This document shows positions 31,872 through 53,098 of a DNA stretch of 64,000 nt, piece by piece. The stretch is from the IMG/VR virus record IMGVR_UViG_3300044635_000318, positions 1-64,000 of that record; one strand, 5' to 3'. This DNA comes from a virus. A program made the position numbers and the translations under genes. Positions within the stretch are counted from its first letter, which is position 1; each line of letters starts with the position of its first letter. Below the pieces are notes generated by a model. It had not been told where the DNA came from, did not search any database, and saw only the letters and a program-made list of their open reading frames with translations.

Positions 31872-34800
31872 TGGAGCCAGAAAACGTAGAACTAAATCCT
31901 ATTACTAATCTTCCAGTAAGAAAAGCTCCAGTTAATCCTATTACTGGGAAACCATTAACTCAATCTCAGCTAAGTTCCCCATTCACTGGGGATCCAATGG
32001 CTTATGGGTTTACTCGTGATATGTCAGAATATACTGACTATGGAGTAAAAGTTACCCCTTATCAAGATATTGAAGAAGCTAGAGCAGAAGCTCAACCTGG
32101 GTATGAACAAGCTTACAGAGGAACTCTAAAAGCTCTTGGTACATTCGGAACGTCAGTTGGGATGGTAATAGCTGGCTCCGTCGAAGGTCTTTTAAGATTA
32201 GAAGATCAATTTGCAGTTGGGGGATTAGATAACGTAAATATTAGTAGAGCATTTGGGGAAGAAAATGAGACAAATAAATACTTAAATCAGTTAAATGAGG
32301 AACTACGTGAATCTATCCCAAATTATAAAACTCAAGAAGAGATTCAATCAATTGGGACATTTGGGGGAATGTTCAATACAAATTTTATTTTTGATGATGC
32401 TTTAAATGGATTTGCATTTTTAGGGGGAGCAGCAGCAACAGCTTGGTTAACTGGAGGGGCCGGAATATCAGGAGCTGTAGGAGGTGCAGCTGGATCGCTT
32501 GGGAGATTTGCAATGTTATCCCCTAGAGTTGCTGCTGGTGTGAATGCTTTAAAAGCTTCTAGAGCTGCTCAAGCATCTTTTTCTGCTGCAAATGCAGCTA
32601 AAATGAGGGCTGCAGCTTTTGCAACAGCAGTTAAAGCTACCCCAGCACTTAAAGCTGCGAGTAATCTCCCAGGAGCTGCTGCTGCAGGTAGAGTTGGGAG
32701 TAAATTATTTAGTGTAAATTCAATTCGAGGTCTTGAGACTGGGTTTTTAATGTCTACTTCAGAAGCTGCAGTAGAAGCATTTGAAGTTAAAAACCAGTAC
32801 AAAGAAAAGTTAATTCAAGAAGCTTTAAAAAAGTACAACGTAGAATCAGAATATGATCTTCCTGTTCAAGTTCAACAGAACATTAATCAGTTAGCTGAAA
32901 ACGTAGGAGCAGTATCTTTCTCAGCAAACCTCCCGATGTTAATGGCTACTAACATGTTTGCATTTAGACAGTTACTTCGTCCTGTATTAGCCCCAAGAAT
33001 TGCAGGGTTAAGTATGAAAGCAGGAAAAGCTGTTTATGCTCCTGGAAGTAAAGCATTAAGAGTTGGGAAAGTATTGGGGGCAGAATCTCTTAGTGAAGCC
33101 ATTCAAGAAGGATATCAGTGGGGAATTCAAGAAACATTAATCAATCAAGATCTTAATAAGTATAATGATTTTGGGTCAGCTGATATGTTCTATGGATTAG
33201 CTAAAGCAAGAGAGAATGATTTTATAGACGCTTTAAAAAAGACCCCAGAATTAGTCGGGAAACTTGCTGAAGCTCCATTCAATCCAGAAGGAAGGCACGC
33301 AATGATTTTAGGGGGATTGATTGGGGGAATAGTGTCTGGAATTAGATTATCTACTGGAAATCAATTTGAACAAGAAGATAAAAGAGGTGAAGCTGCTAAA
33401 GAGTTTTTAAACTCTGAGTTCTTTGGGAATTTACAGCAACGAGCTGCTCGATCTAATCGTGTATCAACTCACCTTAAGAACAAAGAAATCTTTGAAAAAG
33501 AAGGGAATACTGAGGCAGCTGAAAGAGAATTAGCAGCTATATTCCAAGAAGAAGCTTTATTTCACGTACAAAACGGATCTTGGGATGTCTTCTTAGAGCG
33601 TTTAGCGTTAGAAGCTGAAAAGCCATTAGATGAGTTTAAGAAGGATTTTGATATCCAAGATGATAACTACACTGCAGAAGATCAAAAGAAAACGGTTAAG
33701 AAATTAGCTGAGCAGTTAACAGACTTAGCAATATACAGTGATTCATTATCCTTTTTATTTCCTACAATCGAACGTCCTACAGGGTTAAAAAGAACACTAA
33801 CCTCTAAGAAAAGAATGCAGGAGATTGATGATCAGATTAAAGAACAAGAAATAATTAGAGGAGCTATTCTTAGGTCTCACTTTACAATTGGGAATCTTAA
33901 TGAGAAGATTACTGAGACTGCAGAAAGAATGAAACAGGAAATTCCTGAGATAGCTAATATGATTGATGACATTGTCAATACACGTAGAAGCTTATTTGGG
34001 GAATTGTTTTCTAAAGCTGAACGAGCTCAAAAAGATATTAAAGATGAAGAGCTTTATAACAGCATTAAGATTAAGAGCGATGAGTTAGTAGATAAATTAA
34101 ACAAGGCAGCTGAAGGAATACAAGATCCTGTACATCAAGTACTGTTTAATATCTATGCTCAAAAATTAGTTGATTTAACTCAAGAGCGAGATAACTACGA
34201 ACTTGCTAAAAACAATTTGGTTCGTTCCCCTAGTAAGAGAGATTTATTTGTAAGTAGAACAAAACTTGCTGAAGAAAATAAAATTTTTGAGGCTAGGGAA
34301 AAGGTATTAAAAGAAGCTATTGAATCAGCTAAAACATCTAAAGAACTTGCAGATCAAAAAGCTTCTTTAGGGAAAGAAATCGATAGCCACCCAGAACTTA
34401 AACTTCAACTTTCGAATGCTATTACAGCTAAGCTGAAAGAAGAGAATGATATTAATGAAAGATTTAATGGATTAACTCTAACAGAAGTAAAAGCTTTAAC
34501 AGGACTTTCCCCACAAGAAGAGTACGTTAGAAAGCTGCATTTAGCTAAAAGAGCTCAAGAATCCCCTATTACCCCTAAGAAAGAACAAGCTAAAAAAGAA
34601 CCCCCTAAAAAGCCAGAAGAGAAAAAAGAAAAGGAGGAAAAACCAGAAGGGAAAAAGAGTACAAAAGAAAAACTTAAATCACGTCGTAAAAAACAAGGGG
34701 AGCAATTACGTAAGAAAGTTGGGAGTTTAATATCTCTTCGTAATCATAATCGTACAACAATCAATCAGCAAACTTTTGGGGAGTTTGAAGTTGAAGAAGT

Positions 34801-37303
34801 TGATGGTAAATCTTATGTTGTTGTAGATAGTAAAGGTTCCCCAAATGAAGGGAACAGTAGAAGGCTAAATGGGGCCCCAATAATCAATCATGGGCTAATG
34901 AATAGCCCTAATATAAAGATAGGAGACACTGTAGAATTAAAAGTTATTGAAGATGATTGGTGGACATCAAATCCTAATGTTCCTAGAGATCATATTCAAG
35001 CTCCTATATATATCTTAGTTAAAGGTGTCCCTATTGGAATTCTTCAAAGTGGGGATCATCCAGTACGAGAAGCTGCATGGAATGCACATATCAACAAGAC
35101 AGGGGAAGTAATCTCAACCACAATTACTGAAAAGAATAGAGGATACATATTTAATGCTGTTCAAGCAGATGGAGAGAGTAGAGAAAAGTATTTCTATAGC
35201 TTAAAAACTGTAGAAAATGATTTACTAGCTTCTGAATACAATGTCCCTAACGTATTAGGGGTAGTAAAAAATGATGGGGAGATTGAGTTAAATATTGTCC
35301 CTAAAGAAGAAGATGCTTTTGAACTACAAGATAAAATTGCTGCAGAATTAAAAGCCGATGGATTAACTCCTGGACAAGTCTTCATGGTGCAGGTATCCCC
35401 TAATGGGAAGATAACAATTCTCCCATTACAAACCGCTACTTTAAATCAAATAGCTAGAGACCAGGCTGCACAGTTACTCGATAACTTAATTGAATTTGAA
35501 AAAGTTGTCGGGACAACTAACTTGTCAACTATACTTAATGTTGCTGACGAAGGTTTAGGGGAATTATCCCCATTAGCAGTAGAACCAACTTCTGGGGATA
35601 TTATATTTAAACCTGTTGGGGACTCAGTACCTGCTGAATTAATGCAGGCTGCTGAAGCAATGGGAGGAAATCTATTCATTAGAATTCCCGCAAGCTTATT
35701 AAAGCAAATGTGGAATAGGGAGGAAGTTAAGTTTGATCAAGCTACATTCTTAGATTTATTAGTTTATGTCCAAACAAAGGAAAACGATGATGGGACAACT
35801 AAACAAGTGTTTGAACAGTATCATCAAAAACTTTCGGGGGAAGAATATTCGAAATTAATTGGGATGTTAAAACCTCAAATCGCTTACATATTTAATGATC
35901 TGTTATTAGTTAAGAGGTACAATGTAAACATTGCAACATTATCAAACTCTAAAGCTTACACTGAAGAGTACACATCTAGCTTTACTGGGAATACATATAA
36001 GAATTATTATGAGTACTTAACTGCTGAAGAAGAAAACGCTTCTGAACGTAATGGGACTGCAGCAATATTAGGAGCTTCATTCACTAACGTAAACAAAAGT
36101 CTTGATGGATCTGGGGGATCTGTATTCTATGATACAGAAATTAAACTAAATCCTGAGTATAGTGTCAATGGGGTAGCTGTAACAGCTCAAGTAGAAGATA
36201 CTCCTGCAGAGACATACGAAGAAGAAACAGAAGAAGCAGAAGAAACTCAAGCTCCTGAAACTAAAACTGAGACTGAAGCTAATTTAGATGCTTTATTTAA
36301 TCCTGAAAGTACTCAACCAACTACTGTTCCCACAAACGCTACCCCCATTCCTGTAGTTAAAATTATATCTGGAGGACAGACAGGAGCTGATAGACTAGGA
36401 TTAGAAATTGCCAAAGAATTAGGGATTGAGACTGGAGGAGTAGCTCCTAGAGGGTACAAAACTGAAAGTGGGAGTGATGCAAGTTTAAAAGATTTTGGAT
36501 TAAGTGAAGACAGTTCTTCTGATTACAATCCACGTACAGAGAAAAATGTAAAAGCATCTGATGCTACAGTAATTTTTGGGGACATCAACTCTGCAGGATC
36601 TAAACTTACTGTAAAGCTTTTAAATCAAAATAATAAACCCTACGTTGTTAACCCTTCGGCAGAAGAACTTTCCAACTTCTTAAAAACGAATAATGTAAAG
36701 GTACTTAACGTAGCAGGGAATCGAGGAAGTAAATTAACTCCTTCACAAATAGAAAGCTATAAAAATACTTTACGTACAGCTCTACAACCTACACAACCAA
36801 CTACTGTTACTAAAGATGCTAAGATTAATGTAAAAGGCGCTTTGGTGTCACAAGGTACGTCTATAGAACTCGAGATAGTAGGAGATACAGGTAAGCCATT
36901 TTTACTAACTGTAGATAGAAAAGGTAAGATTACTCTATTTTCTGAGAAACAACTTGATGGTAGTTATATTGCAGGAGAGTATGCTCCAAAAGAAGCAGTG
37001 GATAAGTTATACAACAAATATGTTCCTGAAAAAACAAGAGAAGCTATAACTAATTGGGTAAATGCCTTTACTGGTTCTTGGGCTGCTCCAGAAACAGAAG
37101 ATGGTAAAAGATTCGATAAAGTAGAAAAATCACTTAATGCAGAACTATCTGCCTTAGAACCTACTCAACCTACTGAACAACAAAAAGAAGATAAACCTAA
37201 AAAAGAAAGAAGGGGCCCTAAAAGTTTTAATGATTTTAATGTTGAAGAAGAAGAAGGAAGGGATATTGCTAACCATTGTAATAATGATGATCCTCCGTTT
37301 TAA
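31871..37303 (+). CDS. Giant cargo-like protein with a cpYpsA/SLOG domain
   Basis: 1810 residues. In order: extended N-terminus; Gly/Ala-rich hydrophobic region (about 178-275); long helical region; Lys/Glu-rich linker (about 900-945); beta-containing middle; acidic linker (about 1445-1470); a circularly permuted YpsA SLOG domain (about 1497-1640) with ISGGQTGADR (1499-1508), GGVAPRGYKTESG, DYNPRTEKNV, DATVIFGD, LTVKLLNQNNKPYVV and VLNVAGNRGS; and a last domain (about 1650-1770). PTQPTT linkers bound the SLOG and last domains. SLOG domains bind nucleotides or nucleotide-derived signals. The rest resembles an injected internal virion protein. Confidence 0.7.
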   Translation: MEPENVELNPITNLPVRKAPVNPITGKPLTQSQLSSPFTGDPMAYGFTRDMSEYTDYGVKVTPYQDIEEARAEAQPGYEQAYRGTLKALGTFGTSVGMVIAGSVEGLLRLEDQFAVGGLDNVNISRAFGEENETNKYLNQLNEELRESIPNYKTQEEIQSIGTFGGMFNTNFIFDDALNGFAFLGGAAATAWLTGGAGISGAVGGAAGSLGRFAMLSPRVAAGVNALKASRAAQASFSAANAAKMRAAAFATAVKATPALKAASNLPGAAAAGRVGSKLFSVNSIRGLETGFLMSTSEAAVEAFEVKNQYKEKLIQEALKKYNVESEYDLPVQVQQNINQLAENVGAVSFSANLPMLMATNMFAFRQLLRPVLAPRIAGLSMKAGKAVYAPGSKALRVGKVLGAESLSEAIQEGYQWGIQETLINQDLNKYNDFGSADMFYGLAKARENDFIDALKKTPELVGKLAEAPFNPEGRHAMILGGLIGGIVSGIRLSTGNQFEQEDKRGEAAKEFLNSEFFGNLQQRAARSNRVSTHLKNKEIFEKEGNTEAAERELAAIFQEEALFHVQNGSWDVFLERLALEAEKPLDEFKKDFDIQDDNYTAEDQKKTVKKLAEQLTDLAIYSDSLSFLFPTIERPTGLKRTLTSKKRMQEIDDQIKEQEIIRGAILRSHFTIGNLNEKITETAERMKQEIPEIANMIDDIVNTRRSLFGELFSKAERAQKDIKDEELYNSIKIKSDELVDKLNKAAEGIQDPVHQVLFNIYAQKLVDLTQERDNYELAKNNLVRSPSKRDLFVSRTKLAEENKIFEAREKVLKEAIESAKTSKELADQKASLGKEIDSHPELKLQLSNAITAKLKEENDINERFNGLTLTEVKALTGLSPQEEYVRKLHLAKRAQESPITPKKEQAKKEPPKKPEEKKEKEEKPEGKKSTKEKLKSRRKKQGEQLRKKVGSLISLRNHNRTTINQQTFGEFEVEEVDGKSYVVVDSKGSPNEGNSRRLNGAPIINHGLMNSPNIKIGDTVELKVIEDDWWTSNPNVPRDHIQAPIYILVKGVPIGILQSGDHPVREAAWNAHINKTGEVISTTITEKNRGYIFNAVQADGESREKYFYSLKTVENDLLASEYNVPNVLGVVKNDGEIELNIVPKEEDAFELQDKIAAELKADGLTPGQVFMVQVSPNGKITILPLQTATLNQIARDQAAQLLDNLIEFEKVVGTTNLSTILNVADEGLGELSPLAVEPTSGDIIFKPVGDSVPAELMQAAEAMGGNLFIRIPASLLKQMWNREEVKFDQATFLDLLVYVQTKENDDGTTKQVFEQYHQKLSGEEYSKLIGMLKPQIAYIFNDLLLVKRYNVNIATLSNSKAYTEEYTSSFTGNTYKNYYEYLTAEEENASERNGTAAILGASFTNVNKSLDGSGGSVFYDTEIKLNPEYSVNGVAVTAQVEDTPAETYEEETEEAEETQAPETKTETEANLDALFNPESTQPTTVPTNATPIPVVKIISGGQTGADRLGLEIAKELGIETGGVAPRGYKTESGSDASLKDFGLSEDSSSDYNPRTEKNVKASDATVIFGDINSAGSKLTVKLLNQNNKPYVVNPSAEELSNFLKTNNVKVLNVAGNRGSKLTPSQIESYKNTLRTALQPTQPTTVTKDAKINVKGALVSQGTSIELEIVGDTGKPFLLTVDRKGKITLFSEKQLDGSYIAGEYAPKEAVDKLYNKYVPEKTREAITNWVNAFTGSWAAPETEDGKRFDKVEKSLNAELSALEPTQPTEQQKEDKPKKERRGPKSFNDFNVEEEEGRDIANHCNNDDPPF
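36311..37175 (+). repeat. Direct linker repeats around SLOG and terminal domains
   Basis: ACTCAACCAACTACTGTT at 36311-36328 and ACACAACCAACTACTGTT at 36791-36808 differ at one base; a shorter related copy (ACTCAACCTACTG) is at 37163-37175. They encode TQPTTV, TQPTTV and TQPTE. They bracket first the SLOG domain (about 460 bases) and then the last domain (about 355 bases), which points to cassette exchange or duplication of the linker. Confidence 0.65.
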
Positions 37304-37336
37304 TTCTAATTGCTATATTTACAAATAATTTAAGTT

Positions 37337-40300
37337 ATGAAAAAAGCACCTTTTTGCCCAGTAAATAAAAATGATCCTGACTTTGTAAAACTTGTAAATA
37401 GATACGGGGAAAATCAAGCCTATTACATATGGTCTGAATACGAAGGAGTTGTTCCTTTACAAATTGTTAATGGGAATAAAAGGGCTAAAACTACAACATC
37501 ATTAATAGGTGTTGAAGAATACAGAGAGACAATTGATACAGTAAAAGCTGTATTCATTAACTTATTAAATACTTATCAGCAGAATAAAAGTATTAATGGG
37601 GAAACTATTAGCAGTAAAAAACTTACAGATTTTGTAAATGGTCTTCTTGGGGATGCAGAATTTAAAGGACATATCCCCAGATGGTTTCTAAAGAATTCAG
37701 TATCTATAAATGGGGAAAGATTATCCGCAGAACTGTTCAATGAATATGCTGCACTGTGGGATAAATATGCGCAAGCAAGTTTTAATAAAGCTCTTGAAAA
37801 TCAAATCCGTGAGGAACTAATAAATTTTCAAGATGCTTACAACATTGATAATATTCCCCCAAATAGCTATGCTACTCCTGAAGGTATGGATAGAGAGCTT
37901 ATTGCTGAAAAGTTTGAGATGGTGTATCAGCTATGGGGCAGTAAACTTGATGAGGCTGGGAATCCAGCATATCAGGGTTTACAAGAAGCTTTGGTTGGGG
38001 AGTTAAAATCACTAGGATATAAAACATTTGGGAAACAAGTTACTAGAGACCAAGAAGAGTTTGGGGAAATAGAAGAAGGTAACGTAGGGATCACTGAGAA
38101 AATTTACGCTCTGTCTTCTTTTGAGACTAATGTTAATAGATCTAAGGGCGCTACATACAATAGACTATTAAGTAGAGTACTAAGCTTAACCACAAACTCT
38201 TTTGGGTATCAAACCTATAGAGGACCTAGAAGAGTACACCAACAGCTATTAAGAATACTTGAGGGGGTTAAAACAAAAGAGGATGTTTTTAAGAGATTAG
38301 AAGGTAACAAAAGTGCAATTGTTAGATCCACTAATCTTTTAAGGGTTATTGAGAATTTTAATGAAGAAGAGTTTACTCAATTCTTAGGATTGTTTACTAC
38401 TATCAAACAGAAATATGTAGCTATCAGTAATAAGTTTGATGCGAAAGGAAATAAAATAGCTCTGTTTTATAATCCTGATAGGAGAAATGCAGTTAGCCTT
38501 GGGTTAGATACTTTAATCAATCAAGTAGTTGGACCAGGAGAAGATTCTCTTACGTTATTAAAACTTAAAAATGGGAAACTTACATACAATCCTAAGTTCT
38601 CCCCAGACATTATCAATAAACTTAACGTTCTATTAAGAGAACATGATGACGCTCGTAGAACGTTTGCACAAGATGATGCAACTTCGTATTTAACTTCTAT
38701 CGGAAAAATATTATATGAGCTCGGAATTGACTTTGGGGAAGGAAGTATCGAAGAATCTGCTGAAGAGTTTGTTCTCAGAGTTAAATCTTATATGGTTAAG
38801 AATGGGACTTTTGGGGGTAAAGCAATTACTGACTTTAAAAAACAGTTTGCAGCAACGTTTTTATCGTCTTTGAAAGATGTTTTCAAAGTAGAACAGATAG
38901 GGAAAACAGGGGATTTCAAAATAACCGGGGTAAAAGTTGCCCCTAAAAACTTTGTAAGTAATAACAAAACCCCATTCAAATGGTTAGCTGAGGTTATGTA
39001 CTCTGAGAATGAGAACATAGCAGATTCATTCATCAATGCTTCTGGGAATAATCAATATGCATGGACATATTCTAGTACGTTAGATGAGTTTTTCAAAGAA
39101 ATTGAAAAAGATGAAAAGACTGAAGCTTTTCTAAAAGAGTTTGAAAATATGTATTCTGTAGGTTCCCCAGGTCATCCAGAATACGCAAGTCTACTTTTTC
39201 AGTTAATTAAAAAAGGAGGGGTAAAACATGCAGAAGCTACATTCTTAGAGACCGAAGACGGAGATAAATTCCCAGTCAAATCTTTACCTGAAAGAGATAG
39301 ACTGATAATGCAATTAGATGCATATATCAATGAAGGTAAAACAAATGCAAGAATTAACTTAATTGCAGATGGGGATAGATTAAACAGACTCCCATTACTA
39401 GAACTCCCTAGACTTTACTCACAATCTCAATTAGATACCGTAACAAATAACCTCCCAACTAACGTTAAGAAAAATGTTGATATTATTCGCAATATCTTAA
39501 TTAGGGATTTAAGAAGAATCTATATTGAAAATCAAAACTTAGAGGCTCAAAAGTTTTTAAGAGCAGATGCAAGATTCAGTCTTTCTAAAATGAAAGATAC
39601 TGAAATAGATGGGGTTACATTATCAGCTCAAATTGAGGATATGCTAAACAGTGAAAGGGATAGCATTGTGTATTCTAAATTTTGGGAGGAAATCGATAGG
39701 CAAGCTCAAGAGTGGGTGGATATTACTTTAGAGGAAATGACTAATCAGTTTTATCAAAAACTGATAGACTATAAGATTGTTAAAGTATCTAGGAACCCAA
39801 TAGGGAAGAGTAAATTAGGGTTAAATCAAGATGAAAGAGAACAACTTTTAACCTCTACTGAACCTGTAGTATTAGAACTAGAGGATAAAAGATTACGGTA
39901 TCTAGAAGACAAACAGCTTGGGGGGGTAGCAAGGTATCAAGTTGTTTCTACCCAAAGAGGAGATGCATACTTTGAAATCCAAATGAGTGGGGGAAATGAA
40001 GTTACTTTCACTAGAGTAAAAGATGAATCTACTATTGAGTTTGGGGAAGAAACTACAAAGAGTAGACTTTCAGGCTTTGCAAAGATTATTGAAAAATCTG
40101 CAGAAGAAGATTCTACAAAAACATTAGTACGATCATTCGTGTTTGATCGAGCTGTTTATAAAGTAGAGTATGTAGATATGTTCTCTGGGGGTAAGAGTAG
40201 ATTCAAATCTGACTCTGAGATTTACAAAAGATGGTCATTGTTTTCTACTCCTGGGGAACCCCCTGTTATTGAAGACTTAGAAGCTGAGGACCCAATTGGG

Positions 40301-43300
40301 ATGCCTGAGACTTATAATGAAGCTAGTTTAGAAGACTTAAAAATCTTTGATGATGCCCACAACCAAATCGCAGATGAGATTGTAGAGGCTTTAAAGCGTC
40401 AAAGAAAGAAATTACTTGCGGAAGGGGAAGAGCTAACCAAAGAGGATATAGATGAAATAGAATCTATTGGAAATTCACTTAGAACAGGGAAAGCTGACAT
40501 TGCAGACGCATTGGGGATAATCAGTGAGGAGATGGATGTAAACCTCAGAAAAGGGTATTATCGTACTTGGACACAAGAAGAGAAAGAAGCTTTTGAATTC
40601 TACAAGAATACTGGGAAGTATATATTCGATATTATCCCACACAAGTTTATTTATGTAGCTACTAGAAATACTGCAAATCCTGGGCAAGGGAATTCAGGGA
40701 ACATGCAACAAGTATTTGATGCTGATAAAAACTCTTACTTAGTAATGACTAAAGAATTAGCTGCAAAGTCTGAACTCTTTCAGTATCTATATGATCTGAT
40801 GAAGGAGGGGAACATTCAAGTTTTAAACTTTAGGAGTGGAAAGAAAGGGATTAAGGATAACCTCAATCGAGTTCAAGATCCTCAAACAGGGGAATTACTC
40901 CCTATAAAACTTACCCCAACTGTACAGTACTCTAAGGATCTTAGAATGGTTCAAAGAGTTACTACCCCAACAAGGTTTAAAACAAAAGTAGGGAAACAGG
41001 TTAGGAATAATCAGCTAACCAATATCTTAAGCGATGATGAAATTATTCTTAATAGTAAATTCCCTGATAGAGCTGTAAAGCTAACTGGGAGAGAGCTTAA
41101 AAAATTGTATGCAGCATTATACTACAGATACTTTGAGATCAAAGATCAAGTATTGAATAATACGTTCTCATTTAATACTGCTTTGGAGGCTGATCCATTA
41201 ACTGCATTTTTTGGGAAGAATGAGTTAATGGAGGCTTATAGAGAACATTTCTTAGAACAAGAGGAATCTAGAAATGGGTATATAACTCCAGATGTAGCTG
41301 AATCAGCTGAGCTTATTAATACAGTTCAAGGGGTGGATTTTAATCTCCCAATGTCATTCCCAGGAAGCAGAGAGTTTGAATCTTTTGTAACTAAATTAAT
41401 TTCAAAAAAGGTTTTAGATTTAGAACTCCCAGGAGCTAACTATGTAGTTGCCCCAGGATCTGGGAAGTTTAGTATTATTGGACAGAACGGGGAAGAATCT
41501 TACAGAGAGCTTCAAATGTATGGAGTAAAAGATGGGGAGATTCAATATGCTGAGATGGCTGTTAGCCCAGAATTCTTAACTAAGTTCGGATATCAAATTG
41601 GGGATAACATTGATTTAAATACTCTTCTTAAAGTAATCCCAGAAGAAGCTAGAGTAGGGTTAACATACAGAACCCCACACACTGGAAAATCTTCAACTGT
41701 AGTATTCAAAATAGTTTCTTTACTTCCTGATACCTACAAAAAACACATCTTTGTCCCAGGTAACATTGTTACGGTTACTGGTATGGACTTTGACTTTGAT
41801 AAGCTATTTGCTTTGTTTTATAATCTTGAGGTAACTACTAACGAGGAAGGAGAGCAAGAAGTTTACAGAATCCCAGGGGTATACACTTTGGAAGATCTCC
41901 AAACTGCTAGTGTTAAAGAAATTGAGAATACAATGCTTGAGATCTTAGAAGCTATTCAGTTTCAAGAAAAGCATTTTGAAGAAGCTATTACTCCCTTGAA
42001 TACGGAAATGTATGAAGACTTTATCGAAAAATACATCGTTGATGACTACAGAGCTAGTGATATTCTTTTTGAATCTCCATTGTATGATGTCCAAGTTGTT
42101 ACTCGATATCAAGTCGCTCAAAAACTTGTTGGGATATACGCAAACGCTTACACTGGATTAGGGATATTGACAACATCTTCTGAGCAAATCGACAATGCTA
42201 AAGAGATTGGGGCATACATACATACTAGTAAATCAATTCAATACGAAGATTCTAACTCTTCTCTGGTTGTTAATGGGGTTACAATTTATGATGAGTTAGT
42301 TGGGAAAAGAGGAACGTTTCAATTAGATAGAGTCGTTAGTACTTCCCCTATTACAGGGAAACCTATTACTTATTACTTAACTAAAGACATTTCAGGAGCA
42401 GTTGACGCGGGGAATAATCCTTATCAAGCTTCTATCAATGAAGGTCCTGAAACTGCAAATGCTAAAGTATTTCTAGAGTCTTTGGGGATTGATGGGAGAA
42501 TTGTGAGTTTGTTAATCAACTCGCATAAAGTTAGAGCAGTAACTACAGCATTTAGGAATAACCAAAAGGAGGGAATGAATACAGCTTTTATGTATCCTGA
42601 TGGAGACGTAAGAGGATTAGACTATGTATTCTTAAAAGATGTTAGGAAGCACTCCCCCAATCTAGCTCTCCCTACATTTAATGTCACTGATCTATACTTT
42701 ATAAATGCTTATAGAACAGGGAAATTAGATCAATTAATTGCTTCTCTCCCTCAAACTTCTCCTGTAGTACAAACAGCTCGTGATATTGCTGGGGTAAAGC
42801 TTGAAACCAATCTACAGATTGTTCCTGCAACTACTTACAAAGGGATAGACATTGATGAGAGCAATACAAGATCTGCAGAAGGGACATTATCATTCGTGTT
42901 CAAAGCTGATAATAACACTAAGAAGATTAAACAGTTTGCTGAAAAATACGAAAGAGGATTTTTAGAGATAGATATTAGCTCAGGGTATGTAGTAACTGAT
43001 GAGATGGTTGATAGTATCGTAGATTTTATTAACTCTAGAGATATCAAAACATTACATATTACTGGGAATAACGTATTTGGGCTGTTTGACAAAAATCAAA
43101 CTGTAGCAAACGAGTTTATGCAAGAGCTGTTATCTAAAGTCAAAGATGCTGGGGGAGAGATTTCAACTCTTATAGCTAGAGGGGAATCTGGGATTCAAGA
43201 AGCAGCTATCAAAGCTGCTGATATGTTAGATATTACAACCACAATACGTGCCCCAAAGAATTATAGCTACACTACAAAGCTTAATACTATTGTTGAAGGG

Positions 43301-45004
43301 GAAGAAAACTTCCTTAGAAGATTTGGGATTGGGAGTGTAGAGACTGAAACTGTAAGTCCTAAACAGTATGAGTTTGATTCAGTGGAATCTCTTGAGCGTA
43401 AAGTAGAAGAAATTGAAACCAGTGCATTAAAGTTATTTGCTGCAGCTCACTTTGCTGGGAAAGAACTTATGAATGATTATGCGCTTATTACCCCGGATAA
43501 ATTAGATGAAGTCACTGATTTATTTTTAATCTTAGAGTATCTAGGAAAGTTAGATGCTATGGATAGAGGGACTGAGCAAAGATTACTCGATAAGGGTATA
43601 CTGCAAGATATTATATCTAATGGAAAATCTTTGCAAGGGGCTTACGTAAACTCTTATAGAAGAACAATTCAAAAAGAAGGATTAACAAATATTGCTGCGT
43701 TTGACTCAATGCAATCAATGATTGATCACATTAGAACTATTGTAGGGAAAGATTATTTGCAAGCAGCAGAGTTAAAACTCTTAACAAGGGTATTAAACTA
43801 TTGGATGCTCACTAAAGAAGGTTCCCCAATCTCTAGTTGGTATAATGAAACAACAATGAAGAGATTATACTTTGAGGAGGAAAACCTAAAAACTAGATTA
43901 GACCTATTAAAACAAAATCCTGCTTTGAGGAATAATCCTCTGATTCAAAGATTAGACACTTTAGAGGTAGGATCAAAAGAAGAACAAGCAGGAATTAATG
44001 TTGTGGTTCTTAGTGGGGTAGATGAGATTAGTGCAGAAGATACAAAAGAGCTAAAAGATGCTCTGGCTGAAATGCTGTATAGTCCATCAAAGATTACAAA
44101 AGACTCAGAATCTAGAAAGAGGATTCAAAGATTTGCTGAAGACTTAATTTATAATGCATTTTTTGCAACTGCATTCCTCCCAACTTACGGGGGATACACT
44201 AATCTTATCCCAGAAAGATTCCTTACAGAACCTAGGAAAGAAGAGACAAAATCTTTAGTTAAGTTTTATCGTGAAGAACTTGATAAAGCTTCAAAAGATC
44301 CTACATATTTCTTATCTGGGAATGCATTATTTGATGTAATACGAGCTATTGGGCATACAAATCCAGGTAAGTTTTCTCCTCTAATTCCTAGATATACAGG
44401 TAAAGTTTCCGAAGCAACAATCGATGAGGTAGTATTAGAAAGAGATGTAAAAACATACATCAAAGAGAAGATCCAAGCTAATAAAGACTTTGAGGGATTA
44501 TCTACAGCAAAGCAGGAAGAACTAGTTAAAGCTTTAGAGGCGGAAGCTAGAAAAGAGATAAATGCTTGGAATTCAATAATCATAAACCCTAGACAGTTTG
44601 CTGTAGATGAAAACCAACTAGAGGATTATATGGATTCAGAAATCATTTACGATAGTAAATCTCAAGTAGATGGATTTATCGAACTTAATCTCCCAGTGTT
44701 TATCACTAGAAAAACAAAACTAAAGAGCTTCCCAGTAATCACATACATGAGAGTCGGGGAAATTGAATATGCCCCAATCCAACCATTGGGGATGGGGAAA
44801 AACTTCTTCGAGTTAAACTTAAGAAGTGTTACTGGGAAAATAAAAAATGATAGTATTTTTACTACAGACTCTAGACAAAGAACAGATAAAGGACTAAAGA
44901 AGATACCCCAGGCTTCAATTAAATATCTTAAACAAGCTAGAGAAATAACTTTAGACTTAAGAGAAAGCTCTAACACGAAATCAACAAAAAAATGTAACTC
45001 ATGA
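37337..45004 (+). CDS. Virion DNA-dependent RNA polymerase (crAss-like) with SLOG-like region
   Basis: 2555 residues. VTGMDFDFDKLF places aspartates D1484, D1486 and D1488 in the DxDxD catalytic Mg-binding motif of double-psi beta-barrel RNA polymerases; crAss-like virion polymerases carry a matching DFDxD. An upstream region near residue 1215 (FKTKVGKQVRNN) is a candidate for the lysine-bearing second barrel. The N-terminus CPVNKNDPDFVKLVNRYGEN is a motif seen in large Bacteroidota-phage proteins. Residues about 1845-1985 form an extra Rossmann-like region ending GESGIQEAAIKAAD...APKNY, like SLOG domains. The enzyme is packaged and transcribes early genes after injection. Stop and next start overlap (ATGA). 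Confidence 0.8.
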   Translation: MKKAPFCPVNKNDPDFVKLVNRYGENQAYYIWSEYEGVVPLQIVNGNKRAKTTTSLIGVEEYRETIDTVKAVFINLLNTYQQNKSINGETISSKKLTDFVNGLLGDAEFKGHIPRWFLKNSVSINGERLSAELFNEYAALWDKYAQASFNKALENQIREELINFQDAYNIDNIPPNSYATPEGMDRELIAEKFEMVYQLWGSKLDEAGNPAYQGLQEALVGELKSLGYKTFGKQVTRDQEEFGEIEEGNVGITEKIYALSSFETNVNRSKGATYNRLLSRVLSLTTNSFGYQTYRGPRRVHQQLLRILEGVKTKEDVFKRLEGNKSAIVRSTNLLRVIENFNEEEFTQFLGLFTTIKQKYVAISNKFDAKGNKIALFYNPDRRNAVSLGLDTLINQVVGPGEDSLTLLKLKNGKLTYNPKFSPDIINKLNVLLREHDDARRTFAQDDATSYLTSIGKILYELGIDFGEGSIEESAEEFVLRVKSYMVKNGTFGGKAITDFKKQFAATFLSSLKDVFKVEQIGKTGDFKITGVKVAPKNFVSNNKTPFKWLAEVMYSENENIADSFINASGNNQYAWTYSSTLDEFFKEIEKDEKTEAFLKEFENMYSVGSPGHPEYASLLFQLIKKGGVKHAEATFLETEDGDKFPVKSLPERDRLIMQLDAYINEGKTNARINLIADGDRLNRLPLLELPRLYSQSQLDTVTNNLPTNVKKNVDIIRNILIRDLRRIYIENQNLEAQKFLRADARFSLSKMKDTEIDGVTLSAQIEDMLNSERDSIVYSKFWEEIDRQAQEWVDITLEEMTNQFYQKLIDYKIVKVSRNPIGKSKLGLNQDEREQLLTSTEPVVLELEDKRLRYLEDKQLGGVARYQVVSTQRGDAYFEIQMSGGNEVTFTRVKDESTIEFGEETTKSRLSGFAKIIEKSAEEDSTKTLVRSFVFDRAVYKVEYVDMFSGGKSRFKSDSEIYKRWSLFSTPGEPPVIEDLEAEDPIGMPETYNEASLEDLKIFDDAHNQIADEIVEALKRQRKKLLAEGEELTKEDIDEIESIGNSLRTGKADIADALGIISEEMDVNLRKGYYRTWTQEEKEAFEFYKNTGKYIFDIIPHKFIYVATRNTANPGQGNSGNMQQVFDADKNSYLVMTKELAAKSELFQYLYDLMKEGNIQVLNFRSGKKGIKDNLNRVQDPQTGELLPIKLTPTVQYSKDLRMVQRVTTPTRFKTKVGKQVRNNQLTNILSDDEIILNSKFPDRAVKLTGRELKKLYAALYYRYFEIKDQVLNNTFSFNTALEADPLTAFFGKNELMEAYREHFLEQEESRNGYITPDVAESAELINTVQGVDFNLPMSFPGSREFESFVTKLISKKVLDLELPGANYVVAPGSGKFSIIGQNGEESYRELQMYGVKDGEIQYAEMAVSPEFLTKFGYQIGDNIDLNTLLKVIPEEARVGLTYRTPHTGKSSTVVFKIVSLLPDTYKKHIFVPGNIVTVTGMDFDFDKLFALFYNLEVTTNEEGEQEVYRIPGVYTLEDLQTASVKEIENTMLEILEAIQFQEKHFEEAITPLNTEMYEDFIEKYIVDDYRASDILFESPLYDVQVVTRYQVAQKLVGIYANAYTGLGILTTSSEQIDNAKEIGAYIHTSKSIQYEDSNSSLVVNGVTIYDELVGKRGTFQLDRVVSTSPITGKPITYYLTKDISGAVDAGNNPYQASINEGPETANAKVFLESLGIDGRIVSLLINSHKVRAVTTAFRNNQKEGMNTAFMYPDGDVRGLDYVFLKDVRKHSPNLALPTFNVTDLYFINAYRTGKLDQLIASLPQTSPVVQTARDIAGVKLETNLQIVPATTYKGIDIDESNTRSAEGTLSFVFKADNNTKKIKQFAEKYERGFLEIDISSGYVVTDEMVDSIVDFINSRDIKTLHITGNNVFGLFDKNQTVANEFMQELLSKVKDAGGEISTLIARGESGIQEAAIKAADMLDITTTIRAPKNYSYTTKLNTIVEGEENFLRRFGIGSVETETVSPKQYEFDSVESLERKVEEIETSALKLFAAAHFAGKELMNDYALITPDKLDEVTDLFLILEYLGKLDAMDRGTEQRLLDKGILQDIISNGKSLQGAYVNSYRRTIQKEGLTNIAAFDSMQSMIDHIRTIVGKDYLQAAELKLLTRVLNYWMLTKEGSPISSWYNETTMKRLYFEEENLKTRLDLLKQNPALRNNPLIQRLDTLEVGSKEEQAGINVVVLSGVDEISAEDTKELKDALAEMLYSPSKITKDSESRKRIQRFAEDLIYNAFFATAFLPTYGGYTNLIPERFLTEPRKEETKSLVKFYREELDKASKDPTYFLSGNALFDVIRAIGHTNPGKFSPLIPRYTGKVSEATIDEVVLERDVKTYIKEKIQANKDFEGLSTAKQEELVKALEAEARKEINAWNSIIINPRQFAVDENQLEDYMDSEIIYDSKSQVDGFIELNLPVFITRKTKLKSFPVITYMRVGEIEYAPIQPLGMGKNFFELNLRSVTGKIKNDSIFTTDSRQRTDKGLKKIPQASIKYLKQAREITLDLRESSNTKSTKKCNS

Positions 45005-48000
45005 GTTGTAAATATACTGTAAACGGGAAAGAAGATGCATTGGTTAATGACTTTATGCAATATCTAGAGGATAATGGGAAAGAAGGAACTGCTGATGGAC
45101 TCTATGAAATATTAATTGAAGCAGATGTTCTATCCCCAGATGGGGTTATGACTAATACTGGAGCAGCTTATCCATTAAACATTGATGTTGATATGGCTAA
45201 GGAAGTCATTGATACACTTAATGAGGTGTACATTGAGTATTTCACAAACACTTCTTTTCCAGGAATTGGGATTGCAGAATTAAAAGTTATTAATGAGCCT
45301 GAGTTTCAGGGGGCTACAATCCAAATTGTAGATCAGATTGTTAAAACATCTGTTCTAATTGATAGATTTACAAACTCTGCAAAGACTGGGATACCTACTT
45401 CTACATCTAATGAAGGTCAAAATAAGCTAAGAGAAGCTATCACTAAGCTAAGAGCTGACAGAGGATGGAGACTGACTGAAGACGAAACCAGGTATGTCAG
45501 AACAGTAAATGGGATAGAGGAATATGGGGAGAGAGTTACAACAGTTATCAAGGGAAATAAAAATGCCCCTAAACTAAGTGGGGTAGCCAAAAAGCATGCA
45601 AATAGAGGAACAATCATTGATGATATGCTTCGTGCTAGTATCTCAATGAAATCGTTAGAGGATAGATATCCTACGTTTGAGGAGTTCATGGATATTTACA
45701 ACAACCATCAGTACAAAAATGAAACTTCAGTATTTGACCCAAGATTCATTAGAAATCTTCATCAAGTAATTACTACACAGATCCTCCCAAAGTTTAAAGA
45801 GTTTACTCTTATGGCTGATATCCCAGCTCTATCAGGGATTATCCGAGGAGAACTTGTTGTTGGGACTCCAGATATTGTTGGGTATACCCCAGATGGGGAG
45901 TTTATCATCATTGACTTAAAGACTGCTACTTATGATAGGAGAGAAAAGTACAATGGGGCAGATAACTATGATGTTCAACTCACTGATGCACTTCAGTTAG
46001 TTTCATATCAAGAATTGATTAGGCAAATAACTGGGATATCCCCAAAGCTTGCTATTCTCCCACTTCAAGTAGATTACAACTCTGAGACAGATACTTATTA
46101 TTCTGCTATACTAAACCCAGCTAAAAGCGGGAGTATACTCTTAGAAAATACAAAGTTAGATCAAGCTAGAAATAAGTTACGTCTTACTCCTAAGTATGCC
46201 CCTAAAGTCAAAACAGCGAGGGAGATTAAAAAAGATAAAATCTTTTCACATAAAGAAGCAGCTTCTGCTGCTCATGTTCGTATTACAACCGCATTAAAAA
46301 CTCAGTTAGAGTATCTTAATAAAAGGATAGATTCTGACCCCAAGGCTAAATCTAAAATTAAACAGATTCTATCTCAACTTAGGAGAGTTGATGAGGGTAA
46401 TGACGCTATTGAAGATTACATGAGCTTTTTAGAGTACATTGTCGATTTAGCTAACGAAGCTGAAAAGACTCTAGAAAGTATTAAATATGACTTTTCAGAT
46501 AACATAGATAGTATATCTAGACAAGATAAGTTTAAACTTCTTAATAAGATTATTGAGTTAAAACTTAATCTAGACAACTTTTATAACAACAAAGCTGATA
46601 ATAAAGTTTTAGAGCTTATTAGAACTAGGGTTAGGGATTTAGAAGGAGATAAGAATGAGATCTTAGAGTTATTAGATGAAGTTGAAGTTACATTTTCTAG
46701 AGTTAATAGTGACTATCTAAATACTGCACTCCCAATCTTAGCTAAAACATTATTGTCTTATGCCCCGATTAAAGTAAATCAGGACTTAGATAATATGATT
46801 AAACAGATTAAAGATAGTATTGCAGAAGGAAAGCCAAGGGTTATAGGATTAGATCGAGATGATAATAGAGTCCCAGCACTTTTTTCGATTTCAGGGTTAA
46901 AAAACATACGTAGTAAAGCTAACCAAATTAAACTTTCAGAGATTAATATCCAACAGTTAGAAGAACGTAAAATTGGGTATGAGCAAATTCTGCATTCTCT
47001 GAGAGAAACTCATAAGGATGCTAGTGCAGCATCTTTGTTTTTTGATCCAGTAATTTACAGCAATGATACTGTACTACAGTTAATTGCTCAGATGATTAAA
47101 GATCAGTATGTCGGAAGCGCTGAACAAACTAGAAGTTTAATCTACGATATGCAAGCCCCATTTGAAGAGTATAGAGCATATATGAAATCATTAGGGGTAT
47201 CAGAAGATACGACTGCTAAGTTCCATGAGCCATTGATGGAGGAGATAACTCTAAATGTAGAAAATGAAAATGGGGAAATTGTCCCAACTAAAGTATTAAG
47301 CTTTGTATCAGAAATTGATAGGGACAAGTGGTACAGAACAAAAGATGAATTCATCAAAGCTGCTAGAAAGAAATATGGATATCCTGAAAATGGGGATAAA
47401 GCAGCAAAAAATGAATTCTTCAAATCTGAAAAAGGGAGACTGTATTGGGAAGAAATAGACTTAAAATTCTGGAAGATTCATGGGGAAAAGACAGAAGATG
47501 CAGATCAGATTTTAAGTGATATGGATACTGAGATTGCTAATCTTAGAAAAGATCTTACTAAAGCATACAATACCCAAGATAATGCTGCAGTAGCTGAGAT
47601 ATGGGATCAGTTAAATTACTTGAATCGAGAGAGAAATAAAATTTACAGAAACGGGGTATTTATTGGGAGGTTAGTTAAACCTAAAATGTCTATGTATGCT
47701 AACCCAAAGTATACTTCTATGCCAGCTGAAGTAAAAAAATACTATGATGTACTCCTAGAAATACATAAAAACGCTCAGAAGATTACTGGGAAGACTGGGA
47801 TGCAGAAAGATTCTTGGATGGATTATTCATTAATAGTTCCATCAATTGAATCTGGGGCAGTAGATGATGCTATGAAGTATGGATTTGTTGATGCAACTAA
47901 AAAGTTAATCTCTCGAGGTACTCAAGCTCAAGTAACTGATACTGAGTTCTTAAGGTTAGTAGATGCTAATAACGAGCTTTACAAATATATCCCACTGTAC

Positions 48001-49704
48001 TTTACAAACAGAGTAGATGCTAATCTTGTATCTAGGAACTTGACTAATAGTATGATCATGTTCTCTGATATGGCACATAGATTTAGAGCTAATTCTAATA
48101 TCTATGGAGCTGTGACATTAGTACATTTAGCTATACAGAATAGAAAAGTTAAAGAGATTCAACCTAATCTGTATGGGAAAACTAAGAACTTCATAGCTAA
48201 TAAAATTGCTAAAACGTTAGGTTATCAAATAGATGACTACATTGAAGGAGGTCTCCATGCTAAACAGTTAGAGTCTTTTATAGACAATGTTTATTATGGG
48301 GAGACTCATGAAAGAGCTAGAAGAAAGGTTCTGAATACAATTGCAACTAGAAAAGGGGTATCTATATTAACTAGTTTCACATCTTTAGCTCAGTTAGGAT
48401 TAAACGGATTGCAGGCTACAAATCAGTTACTAGTAGACTGGACAGTAGGAGCACAAGAATCATGGGCTGGAGAATACTATAGTAGATTAGACTGGTTATG
48501 GGCTTCAGGAATTATTTCAGCAGAAGGAGGAACAGTTCTTAGGAAAACAAGAACTACAGTTGAAAGTATTATTGGGAAAAGGTTTACCCCAAACCAAAAA
48601 CTATCTAAGTTTTTAGACTGGAGTGAAACCAGCAGAATATTTCAACCTGACAGGGTGGGAAGTGGGAGTATGGTAAAAAAAATAGCAGAGCGAGGATTAG
48701 GGAATTTACACGTACTGCAAGAAATCCCTGATGTCTATATGACTTCAAAAAAAGCTCTCGCCTTACAGCGTAGTTACAAAGGACAACTGTTAGATAAAAA
48801 CGGGAGTGTAATTCTCAATAATAATAATGAACCTGCAGACTTGTATGATCTACTCAATGTAGATAAAACAGGGAATTTAGTATTAGACCCTAGAGTAGCT
48901 AACTTTAACAAGACTGAGTATGTATCTAGGATGCAAGCTATGCTTACTAAAACTACTCAGTTAAAGGGAGCATTTAACAGACCTTCTCTTGAAAGGAAAA
49001 CCTTTGGGCCATTGGTAACATTGTTTAGAACATGGATGGTTCCTAACTATAGAAAAAGATTTGGGTATGGGGGAGGAATAAGAATTGATGTAGAATCTGG
49101 GGAATTACAAGAAGGGTACTACTCTACACTATACAATGTTCTTCGGTCAGCTTTAGGGGGAAACTATGGGTTATTAAAACTTAATCAGTTAACTGAGTTA
49201 GAGAAAAGAAACTTAAAAAGATTCTTGCATGGGTTTATTACAATTCAAATTTCAGGGATAGCAGCTACACTGTTTGGGTTAATGCTCAAAAACTTAGATG
49301 ATGACGATGATGAGCAGTATTGGATAGCGTTTGCTACATATCAAGCTATGAGATTAAACACTGAATACAAAGCTTATAGCAGCTATGAAGAAGCAATTAG
49401 AGTTGTTCAATCCCCAACAGCTACTACAAGACCTTTAGAAAATATCTTTAACTTAGTAGACATTCTAATTCAGTACGGAGTAGATAATGAGTTAGATAAT
49501 AAGACATTATACTATCAAAGAAAGACAGGACAATACGAGAAAGGGGATGCTAAAGTTTACAAGTATCTTAAAAACATTTCTCCTGGTATTGGGGGTCTAA
49601 CTAAAACTGAAAACCCCAAAGATGCTATCAAATACTACGACATGTTCATGTCAACAGATGACTCGAATATTGGGGAGTTGATTTATGAAAACGCTTCAAA
49701 TTAA
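45001..49704 (+). CDS. Giant cargo-like protein with PD-(D/E)XK nuclease domain
   Basis: 1567 residues. GTPDIVG gives D291; IIDLKTA gives D305 and K307; QLVSY gives Q332xxxY336. This is the D...(D/E)xK plus QxxxY signature of RecB/Cas4-type nucleases. The remaining 1200 residues are mostly helical, with a run of acidic and basic helices, a C-terminal segment including FGPLVTLFRTWMVPNYRKRFG, and one hydrophobic stretch (about 1415-1435, ITIQISGIAATLFGLML) followed by DDDDDE. It overlaps the RNA polymerase stop, so it is probably packaged and injected with it. It may cut host DNA or process phage DNA ends. Last gene of the plus-strand module. Confidence 0.75.
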   Translation: MSCKYTVNGKEDALVNDFMQYLEDNGKEGTADGLYEILIEADVLSPDGVMTNTGAAYPLNIDVDMAKEVIDTLNEVYIEYFTNTSFPGIGIAELKVINEPEFQGATIQIVDQIVKTSVLIDRFTNSAKTGIPTSTSNEGQNKLREAITKLRADRGWRLTEDETRYVRTVNGIEEYGERVTTVIKGNKNAPKLSGVAKKHANRGTIIDDMLRASISMKSLEDRYPTFEEFMDIYNNHQYKNETSVFDPRFIRNLHQVITTQILPKFKEFTLMADIPALSGIIRGELVVGTPDIVGYTPDGEFIIIDLKTATYDRREKYNGADNYDVQLTDALQLVSYQELIRQITGISPKLAILPLQVDYNSETDTYYSAILNPAKSGSILLENTKLDQARNKLRLTPKYAPKVKTAREIKKDKIFSHKEAASAAHVRITTALKTQLEYLNKRIDSDPKAKSKIKQILSQLRRVDEGNDAIEDYMSFLEYIVDLANEAEKTLESIKYDFSDNIDSISRQDKFKLLNKIIELKLNLDNFYNNKADNKVLELIRTRVRDLEGDKNEILELLDEVEVTFSRVNSDYLNTALPILAKTLLSYAPIKVNQDLDNMIKQIKDSIAEGKPRVIGLDRDDNRVPALFSISGLKNIRSKANQIKLSEINIQQLEERKIGYEQILHSLRETHKDASAASLFFDPVIYSNDTVLQLIAQMIKDQYVGSAEQTRSLIYDMQAPFEEYRAYMKSLGVSEDTTAKFHEPLMEEITLNVENENGEIVPTKVLSFVSEIDRDKWYRTKDEFIKAARKKYGYPENGDKAAKNEFFKSEKGRLYWEEIDLKFWKIHGEKTEDADQILSDMDTEIANLRKDLTKAYNTQDNAAVAEIWDQLNYLNRERNKIYRNGVFIGRLVKPKMSMYANPKYTSMPAEVKKYYDVLLEIHKNAQKITGKTGMQKDSWMDYSLIVPSIESGAVDDAMKYGFVDATKKLISRGTQAQVTDTEFLRLVDANNELYKYIPLYFTNRVDANLVSRNLTNSMIMFSDMAHRFRANSNIYGAVTLVHLAIQNRKVKEIQPNLYGKTKNFIANKIAKTLGYQIDDYIEGGLHAKQLESFIDNVYYGETHERARRKVLNTIATRKGVSILTSFTSLAQLGLNGLQATNQLLVDWTVGAQESWAGEYYSRLDWLWASGIISAEGGTVLRKTRTTVESIIGKRFTPNQKLSKFLDWSETSRIFQPDRVGSGSMVKKIAERGLGNLHVLQEIPDVYMTSKKALALQRSYKGQLLDKNGSVILNNNNEPADLYDLLNVDKTGNLVLDPRVANFNKTEYVSRMQAMLTKTTQLKGAFNRPSLERKTFGPLVTLFRTWMVPNYRKRFGYGGGIRIDVESGELQEGYYSTLYNVLRSALGGNYGLLKLNQLTELEKRNLKRFLHGFITIQISGIAATLFGLMLKNLDDDDDEQYWIAFATYQAMRLNTEYKAYSSYEEAIRVVQSPTATTRPLENIFNLVDILIQYGVDNELDNKTLYYQRKTGQYEKGDAKVYKYLKNISPGIGGLTKTENPKDAIKYYDMFMSTDDSNIGELIYENASN

Positions 49705-51181: not shown

Positions 51182-51915
51182 GAAGTTTCTACTACACAGA
51201 TATCTTGTGGGATATCTTCTATTTTTAACCCAATTAGCTCTAGGTCATATTTACTTCTAAGTAGTTTAACCAATGAGTAATTCTTATAGAACTCTGTAAC
51301 CCCTTGATGAGGGTCATCATAGTACTCCATATACTTACTCAAAGCAAACGAACCTAGGTTTTTAGACCTACTTTTCATCCAGTTCTCAGCGGTTTTCACC
51401 CCTACTCCTGGGATACCTTTGATGTTATCAGTTGCATCCCCCATCACAGTTTGTACCCATAGAAATTTATCAGCTTCTTCAACTGTCGTAGTTACAAATA
51501 CTGCCTTCTGATAATTGTAATGCGTCCCAGAGCATTGCTGAAGTACATCTTTATCAGGAGAACAGATTACTGTAGGTCTAGACAGGTTAGAGCTCAAGAT
51601 GCTGACAACATCATCAGCCTCTAACATAGGGACATTGTAAAAGTTTAAAGTAGTTTTAGCAAAATCCTTTAAGTCATAGAATATCTCACTACGACTAGAT
51701 GCTTTCCTCTTCGCTTTATACTCAGGGTAGATATCATATCTAAAGCACTTACCTTCAGTAAGATACCCTAAATATGAATCAGTTCCACAAGCTTCTAGAA
51801 TAGAAGAAAGACGCTGAGAGAGACCTTCAATGGCCTCTCCCAACGTTTCTTTCCCCATTTCGTAATAAAGTAAAGAGTCTGCGTCTATTAGACAAACTAC
51901 TTTATCTTGATCCAT
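51178..51915 (-). CDS. 5'-3' exonuclease (FEN/PolA-type)
   Basis: 245 residues. D11 and D13 (LIDADSL), YKAKRK (66-71), EADD (99-102), SPDKD (119-123), GDATDN (159-164) and the helix-hairpin-helix-like GIPGVGVKTAENW (167-179) are the full metal-binding and DNA-binding set of the FEN/5' nuclease family. It would remove RNA primers and flaps during replication. It overlaps the rIIB-like gene by 14 bases. No polymerase domain is attached, as in T4 RNase H or T5 exonuclease. Confidence 0.9.
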   Translation of the reverse strand: MDQDKVVCLIDADSLLYYEMGKETLGEAIEGLSQRLSSILEACGTDSYLGYLTEGKCFRYDIYPEYKAKRKASSRSEIFYDLKDFAKTTLNFYNVPMLEADDVVSILSSNLSRPTVICSPDKDVLQQCSGTHYNYQKAVFVTTTVEEADKFLWVQTVMGDATDNIKGIPGVGVKTAENWMKSRSKNLGSFALSKYMEYYDDPHQGVTEFYKNYSLVKLLRSKYDLELIGLKIEDIPQDICVVETS

Positions 51916-53095
51916 ATAGTTTCTTAGGATCTAACTTATCCTGAAAGTCACTCTTTAACTGTTCAGTAGAAGCTTTAGTTGCGTTTTCCTGTCTGATATC
52001 TTCACGCATTCTTTCCCACTGCTTATCAGTGAGCTTAGCATAATCAGATGAATGATACATACTCCCGTTTACCCCAACCAAGCTAGAGTGAACGAAGTAT
52101 TGCAGACATCTGATAGCCCCATCAGAGAAATCAGGGATAGCCCCAATATGCATAGGATCTACAAAAACATTATGGATCTCTCCTCCATAGTTATTGATGT
52201 AGTACAATCCCCCGATGTGCAATCCAGGAACGCATATATCATTGTCATTACAATTTACTTGCTCCCAAGATTTGAGTCTATGCTCTTTCCCTACACGAAT
52301 AAAGTGCCCAAGAGTATCCCCACAGTAGAATTCATCTCCGTTCTGTCCTTGAACAGCAGGTTCAAAGAGACGCTCTTCCACAAACTCAGGGAATCCTTCA
52401 GACTCAATTTCCCCAGTATTCACATTGAATGTACGAGAATAACGAGGGACTTTTTCCCCAGTCTCTGCATCATACTTGTGAAGAATCTCTCTAGACACTT
52501 TGTACCCGTTCAGCAAACCCTCATTGGTGATTTTAATCTGATAGATTGTACTCAATCGAGTAGCAACTTCATCACTAAAACCCTTCTCTAAGAATTTAAG
52601 CTTCATCTTAGGGTGTACATACTTCATATTAACGAAGTCTGCAAACCTTTTAGCAAAATCCTCTCCCTTAGTAGCAAGGTTGGGGTTACGCAAGAATCGA
52701 GTCCAAAGCTTAACGATTGGGAGAAAGCTAACACTCTTATCAATCGAATCCATAATCCGATCAACCAAAGATTGAGGGATTGCAATATCAGAGATTCGAT
52801 CAAACTCTTTTGTATTACCTCTAACAGTCAGATAATACTTTTTAGTAATCACATCTTGAACAATGAATGGGCATTCAGTATTGATGTAATCAGCAACTGC
52901 CCCAACTTCAACCTCTTCAAGATACTCATACAATGCTTCTTCTACTTTCATGTACCCTTCGATACTTGTAGCAGCATCAGCAGTATTAGCATAGTCACAA
53001 ATCTCAGTGTATACTTCAGGAGTATACTTAACAACTTTTACGATCTCTCTCATAGAGACGTAAATAAAACCTTGATCAGCATTTACTGTAATCAT
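51902..53095 (-). CDS. rIIB-like protein
   Basis: 397 residues. The C-terminal half contains CVPGLHIGGLYYI and YGGEIHNVFVDPMHIGAIP, the C-x-x-GLH(I/V)G stretch seen in rIIB-like proteins of crAss-like and T4-like phages. The N-terminal half is helical. It is directly downstream of the GHKL ATPase gene (3-base gap), matching the rIIA-rIIB order. In T4 this pair counters membrane-acting host or prophage exclusion; the exact job is unknown. It overlaps the exonuclease start. Confidence 0.75.
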   Translation of the reverse strand: MITVNADQGFIYVSMREIVKVVKYTPEVYTEICDYANTADAATSIEGYMKVEEALYEYLEEVEVGAVADYINTECPFIVQDVITKKYYLTVRGNTKEFDRISDIAIPQSLVDRIMDSIDKSVSFLPIVKLWTRFLRNPNLATKGEDFAKRFADFVNMKYVHPKMKLKFLEKGFSDEVATRLSTIYQIKITNEGLLNGYKVSREILHKYDAETGEKVPRYSRTFNVNTGEIESEGFPEFVEERLFEPAVQGQNGDEFYCGDTLGHFIRVGKEHRLKSWEQVNCNDNDICVPGLHIGGLYYINNYGGEIHNVFVDPMHIGAIPDFSDGAIRCLQYFVHSSLVGVNGSMYHSSDYAKLTDKQWERMREDIRQENATKASTEQLKSDFQDKLDPKKLYGSR

Positions 53096-53098
53096 CGA

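Follow-up and report, generated by a model that had tools for sequence, protein, structure and literature searches.

A very divergent homologue of crAss-like virion RNA polymerase with a SLOG-type insert in an IMG/VR virus record

Results

Gene content of the locus

The window, i.e., the whole stretch of DNA analyzed here, covers 64,000 bases of a 71,900-base IMG/VR virus record and carries capsid and tail ring genes typical of Crassvirales: its major head protein (phrog_11589, E 9e-83) and portal fragment are of the crAss type, and the tail ring protein CrAss_Ring_2 (E 1.1e-34) is present as well. Also encoded are an MRE11-like exonuclease, a primase, a Sak4-like protein, DnaB, a uracil-DNA glycosylase, and an SF2 helicase; the gene for a family A DNA polymerase (PolA) lies just outside the window in the same record. 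The structural strand is closed by three giant genes with products of 1,810, 2,555, and 1,567 residues, which share the strand of the capsid and tail genes (Table 1) and follow the order of gp67 (1,797 residues), gp66 (2,180 residues), and gp65 (1,421 residues) in phage phi14:2. RIIB-like and RIIA-like genes adjoin this transcription block (window 51902-55750, minus strand), and a protein with a Fib_succ_major domain is encoded in the part of the record that follows the window (L091:2619-3167).

The 1,810-residue product matched gp67 weakly (E 0.04) and showed clear homology to the N-terminal half of the fused ORFs (3,489-3,974 residues) that contain the polymerase in the nearest relatives. 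The polymerase block is fused in these relatives (L011, L012, L013, L017, and L019) and split in the window and in L021. A frameshift between the 1,810- and 2,555-residue genes was considered, but the two are separated by a stop, a 33-base gap (37304-37336), and a start, and a split is likewise seen in L021; it is hence more likely that the genes are truly separate. Near its C-terminal side, the 1,810-residue protein has a cpYpsA-type SLOG domain that scored 98.5 bits against the PF12694 cut-off of 26.2 and retained an intact loop, SGGQTGADR; this domain is 53% identical to SLOG proteins of the Maribacter phages Colly and Molly. As for the 1,567-residue protein, its marginal PD-(D/E)XK domain was not detected in the gp65-like proteins of the relatives L015, L021, and L023; PD-(D/E)XK domains have been reported in some transcription proteins (Yutin 2021).

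Table 1. Features of the polymerase block, with positions in the window
Feature	Position	Strand	Basis
1,810-aa protein, same position as phi14:2 gp67	31871..37303	+	Homologous to N-terminal half of fused polymerase ORFs
cpYpsA SLOG domain of the 1,810-aa protein	36362..36739	+	E 3.7e-28; 3imk E 2.3e-16
2,555-aa RNA polymerase, two barrels in a single chain, homologous to phi14:2 gp66 and crAss001 gp50	37337..45004	+	ORF, blastp, profile, predicted fold
Conserved polymerase core, residues 930-1751	40124..42589	+	blastp, alignments to relatives
Strand-rich region, residues ~1099-1208, probable DPBB-B	40631..40960	+	Inferred, alignment to 6vr4
Catalytic barrel DPBB-A region, residues 1361-1553	41417..41995	+	Beta-prime/Rpb1 chains vs model 462-654
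DFDFD metal-binding motif, residues 1484-1488 (D1484/D1486/D1488)	41786..41800	+	Sequence, gp66 alignment
Lineage-specific insert, within residues ~1752-2014, at gp66 1675-1698	42590..43378	+	Alignments to relatives
SLOG-type domain in insert, residues 1826-1998	42812..43330	+	Alignment, separate model, 3imk match
C-terminal region common to relatives, residues 2015-2352	43379..44392	+	Alignments
1,567-aa RNA-polymerase-associated protein	45001..49704	+	phi14:2 gp65 E 7e-21, crAss001 gp49 E 9e-17
Marginal PD-(D/E)XK domain of the 1,567-aa protein	45601..46065	+	23.0 bits vs cut-off 22

Homology of the 2,555-residue protein to crAss-like virion RNA polymerase

The central gene of the block spans 7,668 bases and translates into 2,555 residues with no internal stops (table 11). 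In the preliminary description, a DFDFD sequence was located in this protein at D1484-F-D1486-F-D1488 and was read as the metal-binding motif of a crAss-like virion polymerase; we found it exactly there, within VTGMDFDFDKLF and inside positions 41761-41820. A bare D-x-D-x-D would prove little, because 40% of 20,000 shuffles of the protein contain one, and to that extent DFDFD could be fortuitous and the protein an unrelated giant of the virion or tape-measure-like kind; DFDFD itself appeared in 0.15% of the shuffles, and G[SM]DFDxDK in 0/20,000. Against a chance match stands homology over 650-900 residues with invariant flanking residues. Indeed, in 56 aligned phage proteins (that of the window plus 55 relatives), the long motif containing DFDFD is among the most conserved stretches; G1482, D1484, F1485, D1486, and D1488 are invariant, and so are K1103, K1131, K1170, R1445, P1447, and S1453.

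Direct homology to phi14:2 gp66, the alignment proposed as a check in that description, was obtained with blastp, in which residues 930-1577 aligned with gp66 859-1462 and the motifs fell in register (small set, E 4.9e-10). The outer aspartates D1484 and D1488 are paired with D1361 and D1365 of gp66, the counterparts of K1103, K1131, and K1170 are K1012, K1027, and K1065, and that of the arginine is R1322. With the same protein, tblastn matched the “putative RNA polymerase” of crAss001 and other Crassvirales. A single-sequence phmmer search against the PDB retrieved no polymerase, and no polymerase family was assigned in PHROGs/Pfam, since the sequence is too divergent and a profile was needed. 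A first scan of viral contigs with the protein alone also gave no matches; an alignment-guided scan gave 352 relatives, of which 80 were kept, and the nearest relative is only 29% identical over the polymerase core. The profile of the 56 phage sequences, from which the phi14:2 row is absent, matched PDB 6vr4, the experimentally solved gp66 of phi14:2, at E 2.1e-286. Matches of the A2 profile to calmodulin (E about 0.01) were set aside as chance.

Predicted structure of the polymerase

An AlphaFold2 model covering residues 900-2060 had a pLDDT of about 90 across most of the core. Its best Foldseek match was 6vr4 (E 1.3e-27, TM 0.61), with QDE-1 next, and VIA-align superposed it on 6vr4 with a Z of 27.9 over 801 residues at 4.2 Å, followed by QDE-1 (Z 15.8), RDR2 (about 11-16), and P23-45-type polymerases (10.6 and 9.8). 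Chains of the beta-prime/Rpb1 type (Z about 8) aligned from model position 462 onward, and several of them covered only 462-654, which corresponds to residues 1361-1553 and surrounds D1484. The double-psi barrel that had been anticipated around residues 1200-1500 is thus borne out by the predicted fold, with the catalytic barrel (DPBB-A) lying slightly later than foreseen. The strand-rich region in which the invariant K1103, K1131, and K1170 fall is the probable DPBB-B, its boundaries being derived from the 801-residue superposition on 6vr4. Taken with the profile, the 6vr4 fold match refutes a chance origin of DFDFD in an unrelated protein, to which we give practically no weight.

All the features that define crAss-like virion polymerases (the gp66 family) and could be tested here were found in the 2,555-residue protein: the core homology, DxDxD in DPBB-A, the two-barrel fold of 6vr4, and giant neighboring genes for RNA-polymerase-associated proteins. 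These results support the assignment of the polymerase itself to a known enzyme family, as a very divergent homologue of gp66; judged by its sequence, it is a deep branch of that family.

A SLOG-type domain inserted in the polymerase

When the protein was aligned with six relatives, the alignments stopped at residues 1727-1791 and mostly resumed at 2015-2035, leaving 263-298 residues in the window against 25-73 in four relatives (L019, L011, L017, and L015). The net excess of about 215-250 residues is placed after the catalytic core and before the C-terminal region and is absent from the nearest relatives. From the alignment to gp66, residues 2015-2352 would represent the clamp-side part. In the large model, residues 1840-2060 were mostly unresolved (pLDDT mostly < 60), because the relatives do not have the insert; the helices that it predicted for these residues, an artefact of the insert being aligned to unrelated regions of the relatives, were rejected in favor of a separate model of the insert. 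The latter was a well-ordered predicted fold with a core pLDDT above 90.

Residues 1826-1998 have a Rossmann-type fold and the conserved pattern GN...G..G..EA...L...APK. The insert alone had no tblastn match in phage records, and a wider scan was therefore made by alignment; it resembles SLOG proteins about 190 residues long from phages (15 columns invariant across 11 sequences) as well as the L055 and L074 proteins (28-29% identity; E 1e-13 and 1e-8). Foldseek listed generic Rossmann-type proteins with low TM-scores at the top, and the best VIA match was 3imk (Z 8.2 over 106 residues; runner-up 6.7), so that 3imk is the match of both SLOG copies, by sequence for that of the 1,810-residue protein and by structure for the insert. 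The insert profile also matched 3imk (E 3.2e-7), as two pieces in swapped order, and the insert is therefore a circularly shifted relative of cpYpsA. We accordingly place residues 1826-1998 in the SLOG superfamily (YpsA-like, in the broad sense). The insert scored 22.2 bits, below the PF12694 cut-off, and its loop reads RGESGIQEA, not SGGQTGxDEA, so that the SGGQTGxDxA loop is not intact. Because of this altered loop and the low score, the polymerase copy may be inactive; the alteration may mean binding without catalysis, or decay.

SLOG domains in other crAss-like records

When 50 other crAss-like virus records were searched with PF12694, 7 had matches; one of these (L094) had been chosen by its SLOG domain and the other six by their polymerase. 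All the matches were in giant or polymerase-block ORFs, and none of the 50 records had a match elsewhere. The polymerase motif and SLOG were found in one ORF in L046, L065, L071, L074, L088, and L094-L098, with SLOG anywhere between about 1,630 residues N-terminal and about 1,200 residues C-terminal to the motif. The SGGQTGxDxA loop was intact in L055/L092, L074, and L094. On a quick and approximate 64-row tree, on which the window branch is long, at least six SLOG state changes were required among 41 scored rows, 7 of them positive.

Several of these proteins have unusual architectures. A crAss-like protein of 4,150 residues (L074:737-13186) combines an ADP-ribosyltransferase-like domain, an SF1-type helicase, SLOG, and the polymerase, and its VFVFGSNPEGRHGAGAAK stretch looks macrodomain-like by eye. 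In a polymerase-containing protein of 3,631 residues (L065:1-10893), a cpYpsA SLOG is followed by an RNase H domain at the C-terminal end. The polymerase reading frame of L055 (9938-13771) is apparently split into several ORFs, possibly by introns or stop recoding, and SLOG ends an ORF of 542 residues.

The insert of the window could instead be a functionless, degenerate passenger, namely a captured SLOG tolerated at a loop position. Its altered loop, the long branch of the window polymerase, and the sister lineages without such an insert would all suit a passenger; the at least six separate state changes in the polymerase block, the several SLOG copies with an intact loop, and the well-ordered predicted fold of the insert speak against it. 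On balance, we consider a passenger the less probable account of the insert, albeit one with an appreciable chance of being right, and favor a ligand-binding domain.

Discussion

The known systems closest to the window protein include phi14:2 gp66: both are single-chain two-barrel enzymes (Z 27.9) with aligned catalytic and lysine residues and an equal order of partner genes, whereas the window protein is about 21% identical, 375 residues longer, and equipped with the SLOG insert. In crAss001, gp50 has the same motif and homology, and gp49 matches the 1,567-residue protein, but the gene order and lengths of the cargo RNA polymerase proteins gp50/gp49/gp47 differ from those of the window; in G030, the crAss001-like record from which L059 comes, the PF12694 search gave no SLOG match. 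QDE-1 and RDR2 share the two-barrel single-chain fold (Z about 11-16), but they are cellular RNA interference enzymes with about 10% identity. P23-45 gp96, which is fused to a tape measure protein, is likewise a two-barrel polymerase of the virion that forms part of a giant protein (Z 9.8); it is clamp-less and of a different clade, and a SLOG domain is not mentioned in the available portion of the paper describing it (PMC10770324). With cpYpsA/YpsA-like SLOG proteins (PF12694; 3imk), the insert has common motifs and a fold segment (Z 8.2), but its segment order is circularly shifted and its loop is altered.

In crAss001, three RNA-polymerase-associated proteins were detected in virions by mass spectrometry and modeled as capsid cargo that is ejected into the host (PMC10172136). 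The phi14:2 polymerase orthologue was likewise detected in virions by this method, and transcription of early genes is reported for it (PMC7886860). By homology, the polymerase of the window phage would be packaged and act in early transcription. Alternatively, the same polymerase might be synthesized in the cell and serve later genes without entering the virion, as two-barrel polymerases outside the virion exist in phages (P23-45 gp64; PMC10770324). This is improbable in our view, given that the gene closes the virion module and shares the strand of the capsid and tail genes, and that the phi14:2 and crAss001 orthologues are virion proteins.

The evidence as a whole is very probably best explained by a packaged, Mg-dependent, early-transcribing polymerase with partner proteins and a ligand-binding SLOG insert. 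From homology, D1484, D1486, and D1488 would hold the catalytic magnesium ion of the DPBB-A barrel, and the single-chain DNA-dependent RNA polymerase would be loaded into the capsid with its 1,810- and 1,567-residue partners. The polymerase and partners would be ejected with the DNA, and the phage early genes would then be transcribed. The SLOG-type Rossmann domain that has been inserted in the window lineage, after the catalytic core and ahead of the C-terminal clamp-side region, most likely has a nucleotide-derived ligand, for example an NAD/ADP-ribose derivative, and its binding may either neutralize the ligand or tune the polymerase. A role as an anti-defence sink or sensor would be in line with proposals for viral SLOG domains in a 2022 survey of viral NAD/ADP-ribose systems (PMC9503650).

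In the same survey, phage SLOG domains are described in fusion with HTH, HNH, exonuclease, helicase, and kinase domains, and in the passages covered a fusion of RNA polymerase with SLOG is not mentioned; the word crAss is absent from the text. No paper that connects SLOG to crAss-like phages, or to fusion with a virion polymerase, was found in a literature coverage that was incomplete, and the novelty of the SLOG-polymerase fusion is thus provisional. More speculatively, and with considerable doubt, crAss-like phages might repeatedly have built SLOG nucleotide-signal domains into the injected polymerase complex, so that the first proteins delivered would not only transcribe early genes but also sense or absorb immune signals of the NAD/ADP-ribose type (e.g., in Thoeris-like defence). 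The SLOG domain is small enough for direct ligand-binding tests.

In conclusion, the known range of the family is extended by this packaged-type polymerase, which belongs to a deep crAss-like lineage that has been poorly sampled. If the SLOG insert and its recurrence are functional, furthermore, an injected transcription machine would be linked to nucleotide-based immune signalling.
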